Source of the DNA: a virus
Length of the DNA stretch: 22,239 nt
Reading direction: 5' to 3' (one strand)
Virus record (IMG/VR): IMGVR_UViG_3300005294_000167
Span: 1 to 22,239 of that record
Shown: piece by piece, positions 1 through 16,148 of the stretch
How positions within the stretch are numbered: the stretch's first letter is position 1
Layout: the number at the start of each line of letters is the position of its first letter
The notes under the pieces: generated by a model
Seen by the model: only the letters and a program-made list of their open reading frames with translations
What the model was told of the DNA's origin: nothing
The model's database searches: none
Made by a program: the position numbers and the translations under genes

Positions 1-43
1 TTAGGACCGGCCGACCTGCCGACCCTCTCTCACCGCCACTACC

Positions 44-72
44 ATCCTAGCACGTCCTGAGCCGGTTGTCAA
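44..72 (-). promoter_or_regulatory. Strong leftward sigma-70-type promoter
   Basis: On the minus strand, TTGACA (67-72) is followed after 17 bases by TAGGAT (44-49), preceded by TGC, which makes an extended -10. The start would fall near base 37, running out of the window to the left. It probably drives early genes that lie outside the window. No start codon with a convincing SD lies in the few transcribed bases that remain. Confidence 0.6.
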
Positions 73-90: not shown

Positions 91-108
91 CTTATGATAG
101 TGTATGTT

Positions 109-133
109 GTAATATATATTAATATATATATAG
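109..133. other. AT-rich alternating palindromic stretch
   Basis: A run of alternating A and T (TAATATATATTAATATATAT and onward) sits between GC-richer flanks. It lies in the same control region as the divergent promoters and the 11-bp repeats. An easily melted element of a replication origin or an upstream promoter element are both possible. Nothing in the stretch itself decides between them. Confidence 0.4.
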
Positions 134-267
134 AATAAACTACTACCTACCCCTCAGAGTGTCCTAAAAACAGGATTAGAGGACCGATATTGACATAGGC
201 AGGGGAGAGAGGGTAGCCGGTAAGTCGTTGAAAACAGAGAGGTTAGGTCGAAACAGGTGCGTTGGCA

Positions 268-322
268 TTGCGTAGTAGTTAGGTAGGGGTTGCGTGGGTA
301 TTACGTGGGAGTTACGTAGTAG
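268..322 (+). repeat. Five tandem 11-bp repeats (iteron-like array)
   Basis: The units are TTGCGTAGTAG, TTAGGTAGGGG, TTGCGTGGGTA, TTACGTGGGAG and TTACGTAGTAG, at 268, 279, 290, 301 and 312, with no gap between them. Positions 1, 2, 5, 6 and 8 (T, T, G, T, G) are invariant. A degenerate unit may precede at 257, and one inverted unit (9 of 11 matching) lies at 140-150. The 11-bp period puts every unit on about the same face of the helix, as expected for a cooperatively bound protein. A replication-initiator iteron array and a regulator array like the Pho box of PhoB-family proteins are both plausible. Confidence 0.7.
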
Positions 323-353
323 TCCTACTTTCGATTTTGTCATAAATTACCTC

Positions 354-382
354 TTGACATTTCCGGCGAGTTGTGGCATACT
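354..382 (+). promoter_or_regulatory. Rightward sigma-70-type promoter
   Basis: TTGACA (354-359), a 17-base spacer and CATACT (377-382). The -10 matches the consensus at four of six places. The start would be near 389, on the ATG of a possible 42-codon frame. The promoter lies about 30 bases downstream of the 11-bp repeat array, so that array could regulate it. Confidence 0.45.
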
Positions 383-388
383 TAGAAC

Positions 389-517
389 ATGGTCAAGCGA
401 GACAAGGCAGAGGCAAACGGAGATGAAAGAAAGTGCTCGAAAGGCACGAGAGACACCTTTGACCGAGTTTTCCGCTTGACAAATGTTACTTATCATGTTA
501 GTATCTTAAACAGTTAA
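389..517 (+). CDS. Possible 42-codon leaderless protein
   Basis: A frame of 42 codons starts MVKRDKAEANGDERK and ends LNS. It is highly charged and basic in its first half. No SD precedes the ATG, but the ATG falls where the promoter at 354-382 would start transcription, so a leaderless message is conceivable. The frame runs through the next promoter (476-504). The stretch also holds overlapping short inverted repeats (CTCG/CGAG and GTGC/GCAC near 433-450). No family is recognised. It may be chance, and the stretch may simply be the leader of the gene at 543. Confidence 0.22.
   Translation: MVKRDKAEANGDERKCSKGTRDTFDRVFRLTNVTYHVSILNS
476..504 (+). promoter_or_regulatory. Rightward extended -10 promoter for the gene at 543
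   Basis: TTGACA (476-481), a 17-base spacer and TAGTAT (499-504), with TGT directly before the -10. The predicted start near 511 leaves a leader of about 32 bases carrying AGGAG (528-532) ahead of the ATG at 543. Confidence 0.6.
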
Positions 518-542: not shown

Positions 543-881
543 ATGGCACAGGAAAAGACGGCAAAGTTTAAGCTCGGCGAAGTCAACGGTGTTACGGTTA
601 ATAAGGAGTTTGATTACACGTATCGTGAGTTTGATTCTTTTGATGAGGTAAAGAGTTCTGCTGACTGGACTCCTTCTGCTCTGTTGTCACTTGTCAATAG
701 CCATGAGAAGGCATCAGCTAAGGCGAATGAGTATCAGAAGCAGGCCAAGCCTTACATGCCTGATCCTTCTGATCCTGCACAGAAGCGTCTTACGCTCATT
801 AAGAATCTTGTGTCAATGGGTGTTCCGAAGGAGATTGCGGAACAGCAAATTGACGCGATTCTTGCAGCGTCTAAGTCGTAG
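543..881 (+). CDS. Hypothetical protein, likely early or middle gene
   Basis: This 112-residue soluble protein has no signal peptide or membrane segment. The middle is helical and charged (HEKASAKANEYQKQAK, about residues 54-69). The end (about 84-110, including LVSMGVPKEIAEQQIDAIL) resembles a small three-helix UBA-like motif, which is often a protein-binding module; this is only a resemblance. The start is supported by AGGAG ten bases upstream and by its own promoter at 476-504. It stands alone, facing a converging operon, with a hairpin terminator behind it. Its codon use is more mixed than in the late operon. No family name can be given, but it is clearly a real gene. Confidence 0.8.
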   Translation: MAQEKTAKFKLGEVNGVTVNKEFDYTYREFDSFDEVKSSADWTPSALLSLVNSHEKASAKANEYQKQAKPYMPDPSDPAQKRLTLIKNLVSMGVPKEIAEQQIDAILAASKS

Positions 882-1633: not shown

Positions 1634-1767
1634 TACAATATACATGTATTAACAACCATACAACATCATTTCTTATTTACTTACTATAAATATTTTCGCC
1701 TCTAAGTCCCTTGTTTTCAATCACTTACGAAGACACCCCCATACACATCTCAAAAGTAGTTACATCT

Positions 1768-8895: not shown

Positions 8896-10578
8896 ATGTC
8901 TTGGGACCAAGGAGAATGGAAGCCAAATAAGAAGCAGGCTGCTTTTATTGCACTTCCCTATACTATTAAGGAAGCTCTTCTTGGTGGTGGTGCTGGTAGT
9001 GGTAAGAGTGATGTATTACTGATTTATGGAATAATGCATAAATGGCATGAAAATCCATTATTTAAACAAGTATTCATGCGTCGTACTTATCCTGATTTAA
9101 AAAAGGAAATATTAGGACGTTCGCGTGAAATATATAGTAAATTTGGTGCAACATTCAATAAAACTGATATGCTTTGGACTTTTCCAAGACCAGATCAGTA
9201 TGGTGCTGGAATAATGGGTAATGCCGGTGCACAAATCTTTTTATCTCACTGCGAAGAGGAAAAGGACGTGCACAATTTTGATAGTATGGAGATTAGCCTA
9301 TTCACTCCAGATGAGTTGACAAACTGTACTGAATATATTTATCTCTACATAGGATTTGAGCGTAATCGTTCTCCTGTAGGTTCTGGTTTACCATCTATTA
9401 TACGTGCTGCAGGAATGCCTGGTGGAATAGGTCATACTTTTGTTAAGAAACGTTTTATTGATCCTTATCCAGAAGGTGGAAAAATAATCGTTGGTAAGGG
9501 TGGCAATAAGCGTATTTATATTCATGCTACTCTAGAAGATAATCGTGAGCATCTTGACCCTACTTACGCGCAGTCATTAGACGGCAGACCTGAGGCAGAA
9601 AGAAAAGCTAAAAAGTTAGGTGATTGGTCAGCTTATTTAGGACAAGTATTTGATGAGTTCCGGGATAAGAAGTATCCTGATGAACCTAATAATGCATTGC
9701 ATGTAATAGAACCTTTTGATATACCAACATGGTGGCCTAAGTTCGTTATTGGTGACTGGGGTTTTGCAGCTATGACCTATATTGGTTTTTATGCTGTATC
9801 ACCGCAGAAAAGAGTTTACTTATATCGTGAGATTTACTGGACCAAGACTAAGATAGAAGAATGGGCACCAATAGTTAAAGACTTTATTGAGAGAGATAAC
9901 GCGCGAACGGTTAAATTTTGTCAATCTGCTGGACAAAATAGAGGACAAGAACATACTATTGAACAGCAGATTAGCACTGCATTAGATCGTCCTATTGAAT
10001 TGAGTGTTAATTCTGCTGGTTCGCGTATAGCGGGAAAGATGCTTCTTCATGAATATCTTAGATGGAAGAAGAAACCAGTAGTACCTCCAAGCGAAATGCC
10101 GATATATTCTGAAGAAAAAGCTGCTTGGATAATGCGTAATAAATCGCTTGAAGAGTATAAATCATACCTTGCAATGTTTACTCCGCCTGAAGAGGAAGTT
10201 AATATACCGCGTTTACAGATATTCCGTTGTAAAGAAGAAAATCATGACGGGCATCCTAATTGTTGCCCTGTTATGATTGAATCTATTAAAGCATGTTCTT
10301 ATGATAAGAAAAGTAAAGACGGCAAACCTGCTGAAGATGTTGCAGAATTTGAAGGTGATGATCCTTATGATGATTTGCGTTATGCGCTTGACAGTGCTGA
10401 AAAGTATTTTGACGAAGCGAATGACGAGTTTAAGAGAGTTGTTAGGGAAGCCACTATTATTAATCAATTACAGAATACAGGTGATTTTACTGCGTTCTAT
10501 AGAAATATGAGATCGGTTGAAAGTAGTGAACAGGTTATGCCTGTTAGAAGATTTCATCGTGGTAGGCGTTTAGCATGA
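8896..10578 (+). CDS. terL: Terminase large subunit
   Basis: This 560-residue packaging motor has Walker A GGAGSGKS (31-38, K37) and a Walker B-like segment LFTPDE (135-140, D139-E140). The ATLEDN segment at 211-216 fits the coupling motif. The RNase H-like nuclease follows, with FVIGDWGF (283-290, D287) as its first acidic residue and DDPYDDLRYALDS near 495-507 as its last. It hydrolyses ATP to drive DNA into the prohead through the portal and cuts the concatemer. AGGAAG upstream supports the ATG. Length is in the usual range. Its end overlaps a tiny membrane gene by ATGA. The family is certain from the motifs; the packaging type (cos, pac, headful) is not shown. Confidence 0.93.
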   Translation: MSWDQGEWKPNKKQAAFIALPYTIKEALLGGGAGSGKSDVLLIYGIMHKWHENPLFKQVFMRRTYPDLKKEILGRSREIYSKFGATFNKTDMLWTFPRPDQYGAGIMGNAGAQIFLSHCEEEKDVHNFDSMEISLFTPDELTNCTEYIYLYIGFERNRSPVGSGLPSIIRAAGMPGGIGHTFVKKRFIDPYPEGGKIIVGKGGNKRIYIHATLEDNREHLDPTYAQSLDGRPEAERKAKKLGDWSAYLGQVFDEFRDKKYPDEPNNALHVIEPFDIPTWWPKFVIGDWGFAAMTYIGFYAVSPQKRVYLYREIYWTKTKIEEWAPIVKDFIERDNARTVKFCQSAGQNRGQEHTIEQQISTALDRPIELSVNSAGSRIAGKMLLHEYLRWKKKPVVPPSEMPIYSEEKAAWIMRNKSLEEYKSYLAMFTPPEEEVNIPRLQIFRCKEENHDGHPNCCPVMIESIKACSYDKKSKDGKPAEDVAEFEGDDPYDDLRYALDSAEKYFDEANDEFKRVVREATIINQLQNTGDFTAFYRNMRSVESSEQVMPVRRFHRGRRLA

Positions 10579-11052: not shown

Positions 11053-11251
11053 CCAGGTGATGAAGAAGTTCAAAGAAGGCAAGCTAAAGATGGGCAGTAA
11101 GCATGGTAAGCCTGTTAAAGATAAGAAACAGGCATTAGCTATTATGCTTTCTGAGAAATCTAAGGCAAAAGAAGGTAAATCAGAATATAAGGGTAAGAAA
11201 CTTACTTCACCAAGTGCCAATTTTATGAAGCGTTTTTCTGCTGCTAAGTAA
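11042..11251 (+). CDS. Small basic protein of a DUF6496-like type
   Basis: The 69 residues are very basic. They begin MPFDQVMKKFKEGKLKMGSK and continue with DKKQALAIMLSEKSK (about 27-41). The pattern of an FK-rich start, then a GSK segment, then KQALAIMLSE matches my memory of the DUF6496 family of unknown function, common in phages and bacteria. It overlaps both neighbours (11 bases before; TAATG with the portal gene). Lysine content suggests nucleic-acid binding, but no function is known. Confidence 0.6.
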   Translation: MPFDQVMKKFKEGKLKMGSKHGKPVKDKKQALAIMLSEKSKAKEGKSEYKGKKLTSPSANFMKRFSAAK

Positions 11252-13611
11252 TGAAGAATTATCCTTCAGAAAAGATTCGTCAACTTCTTACCACAATATA
11301 CGAAGATTGTGACAAAGAAGATACGTCCGTTCGCGAAAGACAAATACGACAGTGGCGTCGTTTAAAACTTTTGTGGGAAGGATTTCAACGTACCTGGTAT
11401 AGTGAAGTCGCGCATGATTGGCGAGTCTATGATGAAACGCAAGAACAAGACAATGATCAAGGAGCTTATGATAAGCAAATAAATATCTTTAAGGCTTATC
11501 TTGAAACTATCATTGCTGTTTTATCAGTAGCTATTCCATCTATTAAATGTTTTCCTGATAATGCTGATGATACTTTAGACCTTGCTACGGCTAAAGCAGG
11601 TGATAAGATTGCACAGCTTATCTATCGTCATAATGATGTAGGATTACTCTGGTTACATGCATTATTTATCTTCCAAACGGAAGGTATGACTGCATGTTAT
11701 AATTATACTGATTCAGATCCTAAATACGGAACCTATGACGAACATTCCTACGATGATGTTGAAGAAGAGAGAGAAGTAAGCACTTGTCCTAATTGTAATA
11801 GTGTTATAAACGATGCCGCAAGCGATACAGAAGTTGCGAACGGAAACACAGGCGAGGAAGCCTTTCCACCTTCTCAAGCCGAAGTGGCGCCGCAGGCAGC
11901 CACGGAGGCAGTATTAGAAGGAACGCCACAAGCTTTATCTAATACTTCTGATGAATTTGATCCCAATAGTGATATTTGTTCTAATTGCGGTTCTATGGTT
12001 GTACCGCAAAAGACTAAGCAAAAGTTTATTGTTACCAAATTAGTAGGAATTACTACCTTACCAAAATCTCGCCAATGCTTAGAAATATATGGTGGATTAA
12101 ATGTAAAGGTACCGAATTACGCGAGGAATCAAAAGGCTTGTCCTTATCTTATATTTTCGCGTGAAGTTAATTATTCTTGTGTTCTTGATGAGTATGATTA
12201 TCTAAGAGACGATATTTTAGATAAAATTAAGAATACTAAAGGATCTTCTGACAACGCATATGCTCCTTGGATGAGATTATCTCCACAGTATATGGCAGAA
12301 TATCCTGAAAATGTTGTTACTATTCATAAAGCATGGATTCGTCCTTCTAAGTATCATATTCTTCCTAATGATGAAGATATTAGATTGCTTAAGAAAAAGT
12401 ATCCTCATGGAGTCTGTGTAACTTTTGTTAATGATCTTCTTTGTGAAGCATATGATGAATCTCTTGATGATCACTGGACTTTATTAGAGAATCCATTTAG
12501 TGATTATATACACTTTCAACCGTCTGGTGAAGGTCTTGTTAGCATTCAAGAGATTACAAACGATTTAATCTCTTTAACTCTACAAACTATTGAGCATGGT
12601 ATAGGGCAGACATTTGTTGATCCTAGCGTATTAGACTTTACAGCTTATGCTCAACAAGAAGTATTACCTGGTGGAGTGTTTCCAACAAAGGTTCAAGGTA
12701 GTAAACGTTTAGGCGATGGCTTTTATGAACTTCGTACAGCAACATTATCATCAGAAGTATTACCATTTGGTCAACAGATACAGACTTTTGGCCAGTTAGC
12801 TTCTGGTGCTAATCCTACATTATTTGGTGGTGCATTAGAAGGTAGTGAAACAGCTTCTCAGTATTCTATGGCAGGTGCTCAGGCACGTCAAAGACAACAA
12901 AATACTTGGAAGATGTTAACTCTTTGGTGGAAGAATATATTTGGTAAGACTATTCCTGCTTATATTAAAACTGTGCAGGAAGATGAGCATGATGTACAGA
13001 TTGGTGAAGATGGCAACTTCATTAATGTATTCATTAGAAAATCAGAATTAGAAGGTAAGATAGGTAAGGTAGAATTAGAATCTAATGAAAACTTACCTAT
13101 TACTTGGAGTCAGCAGAAAGATACCATTGAAAAAATGATGATGAATGGTAATCCGGAAGTATTAAAGATTCTATCTGCTCCAGAGAATGCTCCATTACTT
13201 CATGATGCTCTTGGTCTTACTGACTGGTATTTACCTGGTGAAGATGATGTTGTTAAGCAGTATGATGAGATAAAGTTATTACTTAATGCTCAGCCTATAG
13301 AAACTGGCGATCCTGAAATGCCAGAAATACCATCAGTAGAAATTGATCCTGATTTTGATAATCATCAGGTAGAATTTGAAACTTGTCGTAAGTGGATAAT
13401 TAGTGAAGCTGGTAGACAATGTAAGACTGATAATGAACCAGGATATCGTAACGTATTATTACATGGAAGGGCTCATTTAGCTATTATACAAGAACAACAA
13501 ATGCAACAAATGGCTCAAGAAAGTGCTGGTGCTGCACCTTCTAAAAAGCCTGCGAAAACTGAAACTAAAGAAGCGCCTATAACTGGAGAAGGTGATGTTC
13601 AACAGGTTTAA
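11251..13611 (+). CDS. Portal protein, with zinc-ribbon insert
   Basis: This 786-residue protein has the length and makeup of a podovirus portal, the dodecameric ring through which DNA enters and the tail attaches. The start has RERQIRQWRRLKLLWEGFQ, then a helical and beta core with repeated DEYDYL- and PENVVTIHKAW-type strands. The C-terminal part is acidic and glutamine-rich (QEQQMQQMAQE). CPNC (179-182) and CSNC (243-246) form a split zinc ribbon whose 60-residue gap is a low-complexity Ala/Glu/Pro segment. Bases 11811-11930 there count to about 58% GC, against about 35% just before. It starts in a TAATG overlap and runs 17 bases into the scaffold gene. The portal call rests on context and size. 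Confidence 0.75.
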   Translation: MKNYPSEKIRQLLTTIYEDCDKEDTSVRERQIRQWRRLKLLWEGFQRTWYSEVAHDWRVYDETQEQDNDQGAYDKQINIFKAYLETIIAVLSVAIPSIKCFPDNADDTLDLATAKAGDKIAQLIYRHNDVGLLWLHALFIFQTEGMTACYNYTDSDPKYGTYDEHSYDDVEEEREVSTCPNCNSVINDAASDTEVANGNTGEEAFPPSQAEVAPQAATEAVLEGTPQALSNTSDEFDPNSDICSNCGSMVVPQKTKQKFIVTKLVGITTLPKSRQCLEIYGGLNVKVPNYARNQKACPYLIFSREVNYSCVLDEYDYLRDDILDKIKNTKGSSDNAYAPWMRLSPQYMAEYPENVVTIHKAWIRPSKYHILPNDEDIRLLKKKYPHGVCVTFVNDLLCEAYDESLDDHWTLLENPFSDYIHFQPSGEGLVSIQEITNDLISLTLQTIEHGIGQTFVDPSVLDFTAYAQQEVLPGGVFPTKVQGSKRLGDGFYELRTATLSSEVLPFGQQIQTFGQLASGANPTLFGGALEGSETASQYSMAGAQARQRQQNTWKMLTLWWKNIFGKTIPAYIKTVQEDEHDVQIGEDGNFINVFIRKSELEGKIGKVELESNENLPITWSQQKDTIEKMMMNGNPEVLKILSAPENAPLLHDALGLTDWYLPGEDDVVKQYDEIKLLLNAQPIETGDPEMPEIPSVEIDPDFDNHQVEFETCRKWIISEAGRQCKTDNEPGYRNVLLHGRAHLAIIQEQQMQQMAQESAGAAPSKKPAKTETKEAPITGEGDVQQV

Positions 13612-14894: not shown

Positions 14895-16148
14895 ATGGCA
14901 GTTGTTGAATCTCAGGTATCAGCACTAGAGCTGGAAAGGGTCATTCCTAAGATCCGTGTCCTGTTCGAACGGGACGATAAGTTTTTTGCTAATATCAAGA
15001 AGCGTGATGTTGAAGTCATTTCTAATCGTCAGATGCGTGTTCCTTTAGAATTAAGACCTGGTGGTTCTTTCCAGTATTTTGATCCTAATGGTGGTGATTT
15101 AGGTCGTGGTGGTGGTCCGACTTGGGATAAGGCAGTACTTAATTCAGTATTTGTTAGCGAGAATATTGAATATACTAAACTTACCCAGTGGTCTACTGAT
15201 GGTGATAAGAAGGCTATTACTAATGCTGTAAAGCGTCTTACTGCTACTGCTCTTGATGAATTAAGGCGGCAGTTAGATTCTCAGCTTATGCAGGCTGGTA
15301 ATGGTGTTGTAGGTACTATTACTTCTGTCTCTACTACTGCTGGAGTTGATACCTATACTTTAACGTCTGATGGTTTTGGCGCGCGTCTTGTGCGTTATGG
15401 TCAGACTATTCAGGTATTTGATACCACTTTAGCAACTTTACGCGGAAGTGGTGTTATTACAGCATGGGATGTTGAGAATAATACTATTGACGTTACACCT
15501 GCTGTAGCTGCTTCTGCTGCAACAGACGTTTTAGTTGTTAATGGTCTTAGTTCTCCTGCATCTTTACCTGCTATGTATGGTGTGCCTTATCATCATTCAA
15601 ATGCTAGTACGGGTACTTGGTTAGGTTTCTCGCGTAGCACTACTCCTGAAATCCGTTCTAACGGTGTTAATGGTGGCGGTTCTGCATTATCATTACCTTT
15701 ACCACGTCTTGCAATGAATAAGATTGGTAATCGTGTTGGTATTGACAATAACTTCAAGCCTGTTGCATGGCATCATCCTGCACAGTCTCAGGCTTATGAA
15801 GATATTGGTCAGGCTGTTATCATGCTTAATCAGCCAGGAGAAAATAAAGGCTTAGATATGTACTTTGGTGGAGTACAGAACTTTGCCGGTGCTAAGGGTA
15901 AAGAATCCTTTAACTGGGATAAAACTCGTATTGACTTCGTATCTGATGAAGTTTGGGGCCGTGGTGAAACGTTACCTATTGGCTTCTATACTACTGATGG
16001 TAGGAAGATTTTCGAGATTCGTTCTTCTTCAGGAGGTATCGCTACTAGTGATATCTTCTATATGGTATGTGGTATGCAGTTCTTCGTGAATAATCCTGCT
16101 GCTACTGCTTATATCTATAACTTGGCAATTCCTGCTGGTTATCAATAG
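14895..16148 (+). CDS. Major capsid protein
   Basis: This 417-residue protein begins MAVVESQVSALELERVIPKI and contains a QMRVPLELRPGGSFQYFDPN segment (about 46-65) and ELRRQLDSQLMQAGNGVVG (about 121-139), followed by beta-rich domains. Length, position after the scaffold, and the layout of an N-terminal arm, long helix, and beta body fit an HK97-fold coat protein of P22-like or N4-like type. It has AAGGA upstream of the ATG. A perfect 11-bp hairpin follows its stop, fitting a highly expressed message protected or processed at its 3' end. The call is firm for role, less for subfamily. Confidence 0.8.
   Translation: MAVVESQVSALELERVIPKIRVLFERDDKFFANIKKRDVEVISNRQMRVPLELRPGGSFQYFDPNGGDLGRGGGPTWDKAVLNSVFVSENIEYTKLTQWSTDGDKKAITNAVKRLTATALDELRRQLDSQLMQAGNGVVGTITSVSTTAGVDTYTLTSDGFGARLVRYGQTIQVFDTTLATLRGSGVITAWDVENNTIDVTPAVAASAATDVLVVNGLSSPASLPAMYGVPYHHSNASTGTWLGFSRSTTPEIRSNGVNGGGSALSLPLPRLAMNKIGNRVGIDNNFKPVAWHHPAQSQAYEDIGQAVIMLNQPGENKGLDMYFGGVQNFAGAKGKESFNWDKTRIDFVSDEVWGRGETLPIGFYTTDGRKIFEIRSSSGGIATSDIFYMVCGMQFFVNNPAATAYIYNLAIPAGYQ

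Follow-up and report, generated by a model that had tools for sequence, protein, structure and literature searches.

An 11-bp repeat array in an uncultured phage as the probable right half of a replication origin with two-fold symmetry

We analyzed a 22,239-bp linear IMG/VR record (IMGVR_UViG_3300005294_000167; the whole stretch is referred to as the window), a fragment from an uncultured, mostly soil, phage family that carries a paired-array module. Nucleotide searches gave no DNA-level match to the window among isolate phages, and the window TerL has distant matches alone among isolates, with 25–33% identity among the matches listed, so there is no cultured host. The features of the window that enter the analysis are as follows.

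22–34, minus strand: mirror of the G-rich tract at 202–214, part of the truncated left half
44–72, minus strand: leftward promoter-like site TTGACA-17-TAGGAT, directed off the contig
73–90, unstranded: operator-like palindrome TGTCCA-AATTAG-TGGACA with 6-bp arms, directly adjacent to the -35 hexamer of the leftward promoter-like site
93–142, unstranded: AT-rich centre, putative melting element
202–214, plus strand: G-rich tract GGGGAGAGAGGGT, forming inverted pair I3 with 22–34 (13 nt, 92% complementary); similar tracts occur in relatives
221–245, plus strand: degenerate 25-bp box TAAGTCGTTGAAAACAGAGAGGTTA (consensus TAAGTCNTTGANNNNNAAGGACTTA), at a distance from the array that is constant to about 1 bp across 17 phages
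257–267, plus strand: degenerate sixth unit GTGCGTTGGCA, preceding the five; relatives also have a unit in that register
268–322, plus strand: right-hand iteron array, five 11-bp units TT(G/A)(C/G)GT(A/G)G(T/G)(A/G/T)(G/A), in register with the right-hand arrays of 16 relatives
268–278: array unit 1, TTGCGTAGTAG
279–289: array unit 2, TTAGGTAGGGG
290–300: array unit 3, TTGCGTGGGTA
301–311: array unit 4, TTACGTGGGAG
312–322: array unit 5, TTACGTAGTAG
354–382, plus strand: rightward promoter-like site TTGACA-17-CATACT, 31 bp past the array
476–504, plus strand: rightward promoter-like site TTGACA-17-TAGTAT, upstream of orf543
543–881, plus strand: orf543 (112 aa), of a family present beside the module in relatives
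1703–1727, minus strand: better-preserved second 25-bp box TAAGTGATTGAAAACAAGGGACTTA, upstream of a late promoter-like site at 1888–1917
8896–10578: terminase
11251–13611: protein in the portal position
14895–16148: major head protein

The preliminary description of this DNA had reported five contiguous 11-bp units with an invariant TT..GT.G between an AT-rich palindromic stretch and a rightward promoter, and the sequence bears this out. The lag-11 identity of the array is 30/44, a value reached in 0 of 500 first-order Markov (dinucleotide) shuffles of positions 1–540 at any period from 6 to 25, all of which were scored, and likewise never reached in 500 shuffles of 181–330 or 60 of the whole window. 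TT..GT.G is invariant across the five units, the AT-rich stretch includes the least stable 50-mer of all 22,239 bp (93–142), and rightward promoter-like sites are present at 354–382 and 476–504. An inverted copy had also been placed at 140–150 (GTAGGTAGTAG, minus strand); it is present but weak, ranking 13th among window motif matches, after the five units and seven matches of chance level at other places in the window. The window holds the right half of the module, its centre and the inner part of its left half, and the left array is cut off by position 1; the family's inverted array should therefore lie to the left of that position, off the contig, and not at 140–150. An RNA or terminator reading of the region was ruled out by the absence of any Rfam match in the window and of any terminator-like site within positions 1–2000.

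Relatives were gathered from terminase relatives and then from longer contigs, both of which showed short arrays with a period of 10–11 and differing unit sequences, and 33 further loci were fetched using as bait an early gene present in most relatives. In the upstream regions of these 33 relatives, 25 arrays had a period of 11 and 21 a period of 22, against 0 or 1 array for every other period from 7 to 25, so that the period of 11, which close relatives might have lacked, is instead dominant among them. Both sides of the module were readable in 20 phages, some of them close kin, which represent roughly 14–15 lineages by eye. In these 20, two inverted 11-bp arrays flank a poly-T/ATATAATATTAT centre at similar distances, roughly 130–180 bp on each side. 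The left half runs from an array of TTTCC-type units through a TAAGT...ACTTA box and a C-rich tract to the poly-T, which usually has at least 15 Ts and runs into ATATAATATTATA; after the centre, the right half continues with a G-rich tract, the box and an inverted array of GGAAA-type units. Each array has about 5–7 units of 11 bp. The best-scoring array windows begin 125–178 bp to the right of the centre, and those on the left begin at offsets of 115–219 bp from a point 60 bp outside the centre, to which 60 bp must be added for the true distance. The AT centre ranks 1–3 for low stability in seven relatives and lower in G022, G003 and G004. The contig ends of one relative (G005) overlap by about 145 bp at the module, with one T length difference, and the genome therefore looks circular or permuted, though classed as linear.

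Within a phage, the left motif agrees with the reverse-complemented right motif at 0.79, compared with 0.49 between phages and 0.18 for left versus right in direct orientation; the within-phage agreement was reached in 0 of 100,000 permutations. A motif shared by the paired arrays would fit one trans-acting binder per phage, and recombination between inverted arrays could yield it too. Conservation of the exact unit in related phages, by contrast with that of the period, did not hold up: an exact-motif scan of IMG/VR found it in no other family phage, and its one match (L002) is an unrelated Neisseria-type prophage repeat. In that contig, which is of Neisseria prophage type and outside this family, a perfect TTGCGTAGTAG tandem repeat occupies 2405–2445, just past a gene end. 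The unit sequence is thus private to the window phage, and the arrangement common to the family. When window positions 105–335 were aligned with 16 relatives, the alignment was almost gap-free from the box through the array, with an invariant G at window positions 264, 275, 286, 297 and 308, and the window array is therefore in register with theirs though the bases differ. The window motif is without the GAAA/TTTC core typical of most relatives. It comes closest to the motif of L285, at 0.53, and the motif alone leaves the orientation of the array undecided.

Some relatives carry further elements around the module. Several of them have arrays of a second kind, with a period of 10 and TGCACACCCC/GTGCA units, close to orf543 and the late genes (L040 1353–1420, L041 1186–1239, L009 about 2430–2515 and L285 1177–1227), and in G009 a GAGTCATATA array, also with a period of 10, is similarly placed (37361–37420). 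GTGTCC...GGACAC-like sites recur, scattered inside the module. Just outside the arrays, L268, L272, L273, L282, L287, L289, L275, L276 and G007 have inward promoter-like sites on the minus strand at about +300, joined in some of these relatives by plus-strand sites at -240 to -300. The sites point at the AT centre, and transcriptional activation of an origin is possible.

The 25-bp box, TAAGTNNTTGANNNNNAAGGACTTA, forms a full palindrome, TAAGTCGTTGA-NNN-TCAACGACTTA, in many phages. It is strongly over-represented in phages, with at least 120 stretches in IMG/VR (loci L082–L201) and more than 100 matches across 39 records versus 0 for a reversed control. Copies are often clustered within 5–15 kb, mostly intergenic and oriented at random to genes, and linkage of box and array was absent outside the family. 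A literature search matched the box sequence to primers alone. We dropped host inference from the box, as its 62 matches in a scan of genome contigs were taxonomically scattered. The helix-turn-helix protein A8 was present in just 2 of the 39 records with the box, one of which belongs to the family, and was therefore rejected as a general box binder. The box-rich phages are largely related to each other, and a gene of theirs was likewise discarded as the binder, none being common with this family in the clusters shown.

In relatives, the module sits between two divergent arms, late and early. The early arm encodes a SNF2/SprT helicase, a PD-(D/E)XK nuclease and a Sak4 ATPase, and further SSB-like and cold-shock proteins, a UDG-DNA polymerase A and a DUF3987 primase. 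The leftward promoter-like site at 44–72 points to the early genes if the family gene order holds in the window. Orf543 is directed to the late genes in the window and points the opposite way in those relatives in which it was located, and its gene block appears inverted relative to theirs; used as sole query against viral contigs, orf543 gave no match, and its predicted structure (pTM 0.38) gave no meaningful fold match. The window contig is without its own early arm. Among the 58 scanned proteins of two relatives, Pfam and PHROGs identified no initiator of known type (DnaA, RepA/Rep_3 or lambda O). An early protein with zinc and coiled-coil features (predicted structure pTM 0.31) was set aside as the specificity factor, being very alike in phages with different arrays, and orf1997 is also very alike in phages with differing motifs. 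In G019 and G020, for example, most of the conserved early proteins are about 80–97% identical and the units differ. Since the candidate proteins are alike despite differing motifs, either the variable bases go unread, and the binder would read a short core and the spacing alone, or the binder was missed; the window unit, without the usual GAAA core, limits the short-core idea.

We consider it probable (roughly 60%) that the array makes up the right half of a replication origin with two-fold symmetry, composed of paired iterons and a melting element. An origin of iterons and an AT-rich melting element had already been proposed for this region; the period, position, inverted pairing, box spacing and low-stability centre proved to be conserved, and the exact unit did not. 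The arrangement is built like a replication start and, as we read it, would work like an iteron-type origin. From the repeat and its period, pairing and spacing, and from the centre and its setting, we infer protein binding, melting, initiation and direction. Copies of a phage-encoded initiator would line up along each array in phase with the helix, all on the same face of the DNA, and the two mirrored initiator complexes would strain and melt the AT centre between the arrays. The phage primase, SSB-like protein and family A polymerase would then load at the melted centre, and replication would proceed from there in both directions. GC skew switches sign at the centre, within non-coding DNA. 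Whole-genome GC-skew minima lie 0–3 kb from the module, near the divergent gene switch, and also follow gene direction, and therefore cannot separate replication from transcription. We claim no membership of an iteron-origin family because the cognate initiator was sought and not found.

The same elements might instead form a transcription switch, in which a phage regulator of divergent early and late promoters would use the arrays as operators or activator sites and the AT centre would be only promoter DNA. The module does lie between oppositely transcribed arms, promoter-like sites flank the window array (72–44, minus strand; 354–382, plus strand), operator-like GTGTCC...GGACAC palindromes occur inside the module, and several relatives have inward promoter-like sites near +/-300 bp. 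We nevertheless regard such a switch as unlikely: promoter position relative to the arrays varies across the 20 relatives with no shared distance, and a simple operator can do without strict two-fold symmetry about a centre of homopolymer T. No OmpR/PhoB-type regulator was found, and the PhoB-family array suggested in the preliminary description gains no support: a Pfam scan of the 58 proteins of two relatives gave no winged-helix Trans_reg_C or response-regulator match, and promoters have no fixed position by the arrays. A functionless local tandem duplication, kept alike by slippage and inverted-repeat recombination, would account for motifs that differ among phages whose early proteins are mostly 80–97% identical, and slippage can generate tandem repeats; however, many lineages keep the period, the unit number, the distance to box and centre, and the pairing, and the array period equals the helical turn and is not random, which makes this explanation very improbable.

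Packaging offers another account, according to which the arrays would be a pac site ringed by terminase small subunits, with the DNA wrapped once per helical turn and packaging and genome ends starting here. In 8 of the 14 near-complete contigs (G003–G007, G009, G010, G019, G020, G022 and G025–G028; binomial P 6e-10), the ends lie no more than 600 bp from the module centre, and orf1997, located where the packaging/late arm starts, contains a conserved helix-turn-helix-like segment and is a TerS candidate. Against this, G007, G009, G010, G019, G020, G025 and L009 read straight through the module, and several contig breaks are at the poly-T run, a common assembly problem. Sequence searches of PHROGs, Pfam and PDB matched orf1997 to no TerS, and the helix-turn-helix-like segment of this protein does not vary with the motif. 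Packaging is one-directional and the module mirror-symmetric, a symmetry unusual for packaging, and we think a pac site quite unlikely. Least probable, in our judgment, is a parC-like centromere. Paired sets of about five 11-bp units do resemble parC (PMC4949242), but the family's sets are inverted, roughly 200–300 bp apart, rather than direct, the ParM, ParA and TubZ families had no match in the 58 proteins of two relatives, and no plasmid maintenance gene was seen.

If the origin reading is true, it would provide a testable origin for uncultured phages that have their own polymerase, primase and recombinase and no recognisable initiator. A single contig would suggest a private repeat, and it is the comparison that reveals the conserved arrangement. 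The result is a natural series of arrays, one architecture with many unit sequences, that would show what an initiator reads in an iteron row. More tentatively, and with somewhat less than even confidence, we suggest that the module represents a new class of bidirectional phage origin, in which mirrored, helically phased 11-bp iteron arrays, nearly phage-private, flank a homopolymer-T melting element. The initiator of such an origin would depend mainly on the spacing and on a short core for recognition, with the remaining bases of the unit changing fast between close relatives, and the TAAGTC...GACTTA box would be a module shared with many unrelated phages.

Two-fold symmetric inverted initiator sites around an AT tract are known from HSV-1 oriS and the SV40 core origin; these belong to eukaryotic viruses, with unrelated initiators and much shorter arrays, and the resemblance is an analogy only. 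Among bacterial replicons, ori-lambda is located inside the O gene, and iteron plasmids mostly have longer units, of about 17–22 bp, with an adjacent rep gene. What defines lambda and iteron-plasmid origins anatomically is a set of phased iterons adjoining an A+T-rich region (PMC5043065). The module resembles ori-lambda in having repeated candidate initiator sites by an A+T-rich region, in the replication/control region of the genome, but the lambda iterons are inverted repeats of 19 bp and have the A+T-rich region to one side (PMC5043065), whereas here the units are of 11 bp, two mirrored non-coding arrays flank the centre, and no O-like gene was found. With the RK2, pSC101, R6K, P1 and F origins it has in common helically phased direct repeats and an A+T-rich opening region (PMC5043065), and it is unlike them in its 11-bp units and paired inverted arrays, with no Rep family match found. 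Plasmid R1 parC has two sets of five helically phased repeats of about 11 bp each, a unit length that follows from its 22-bp two-iteron fragment (PMC4949242); here, the sets are inverted and not direct, they enclose a wide AT centre, and ParM/ParR were not found. With its paired, inverted arrays of 11-bp units about a homopolymer centre, the module departs from the origins of lambda and of the iteron plasmids.
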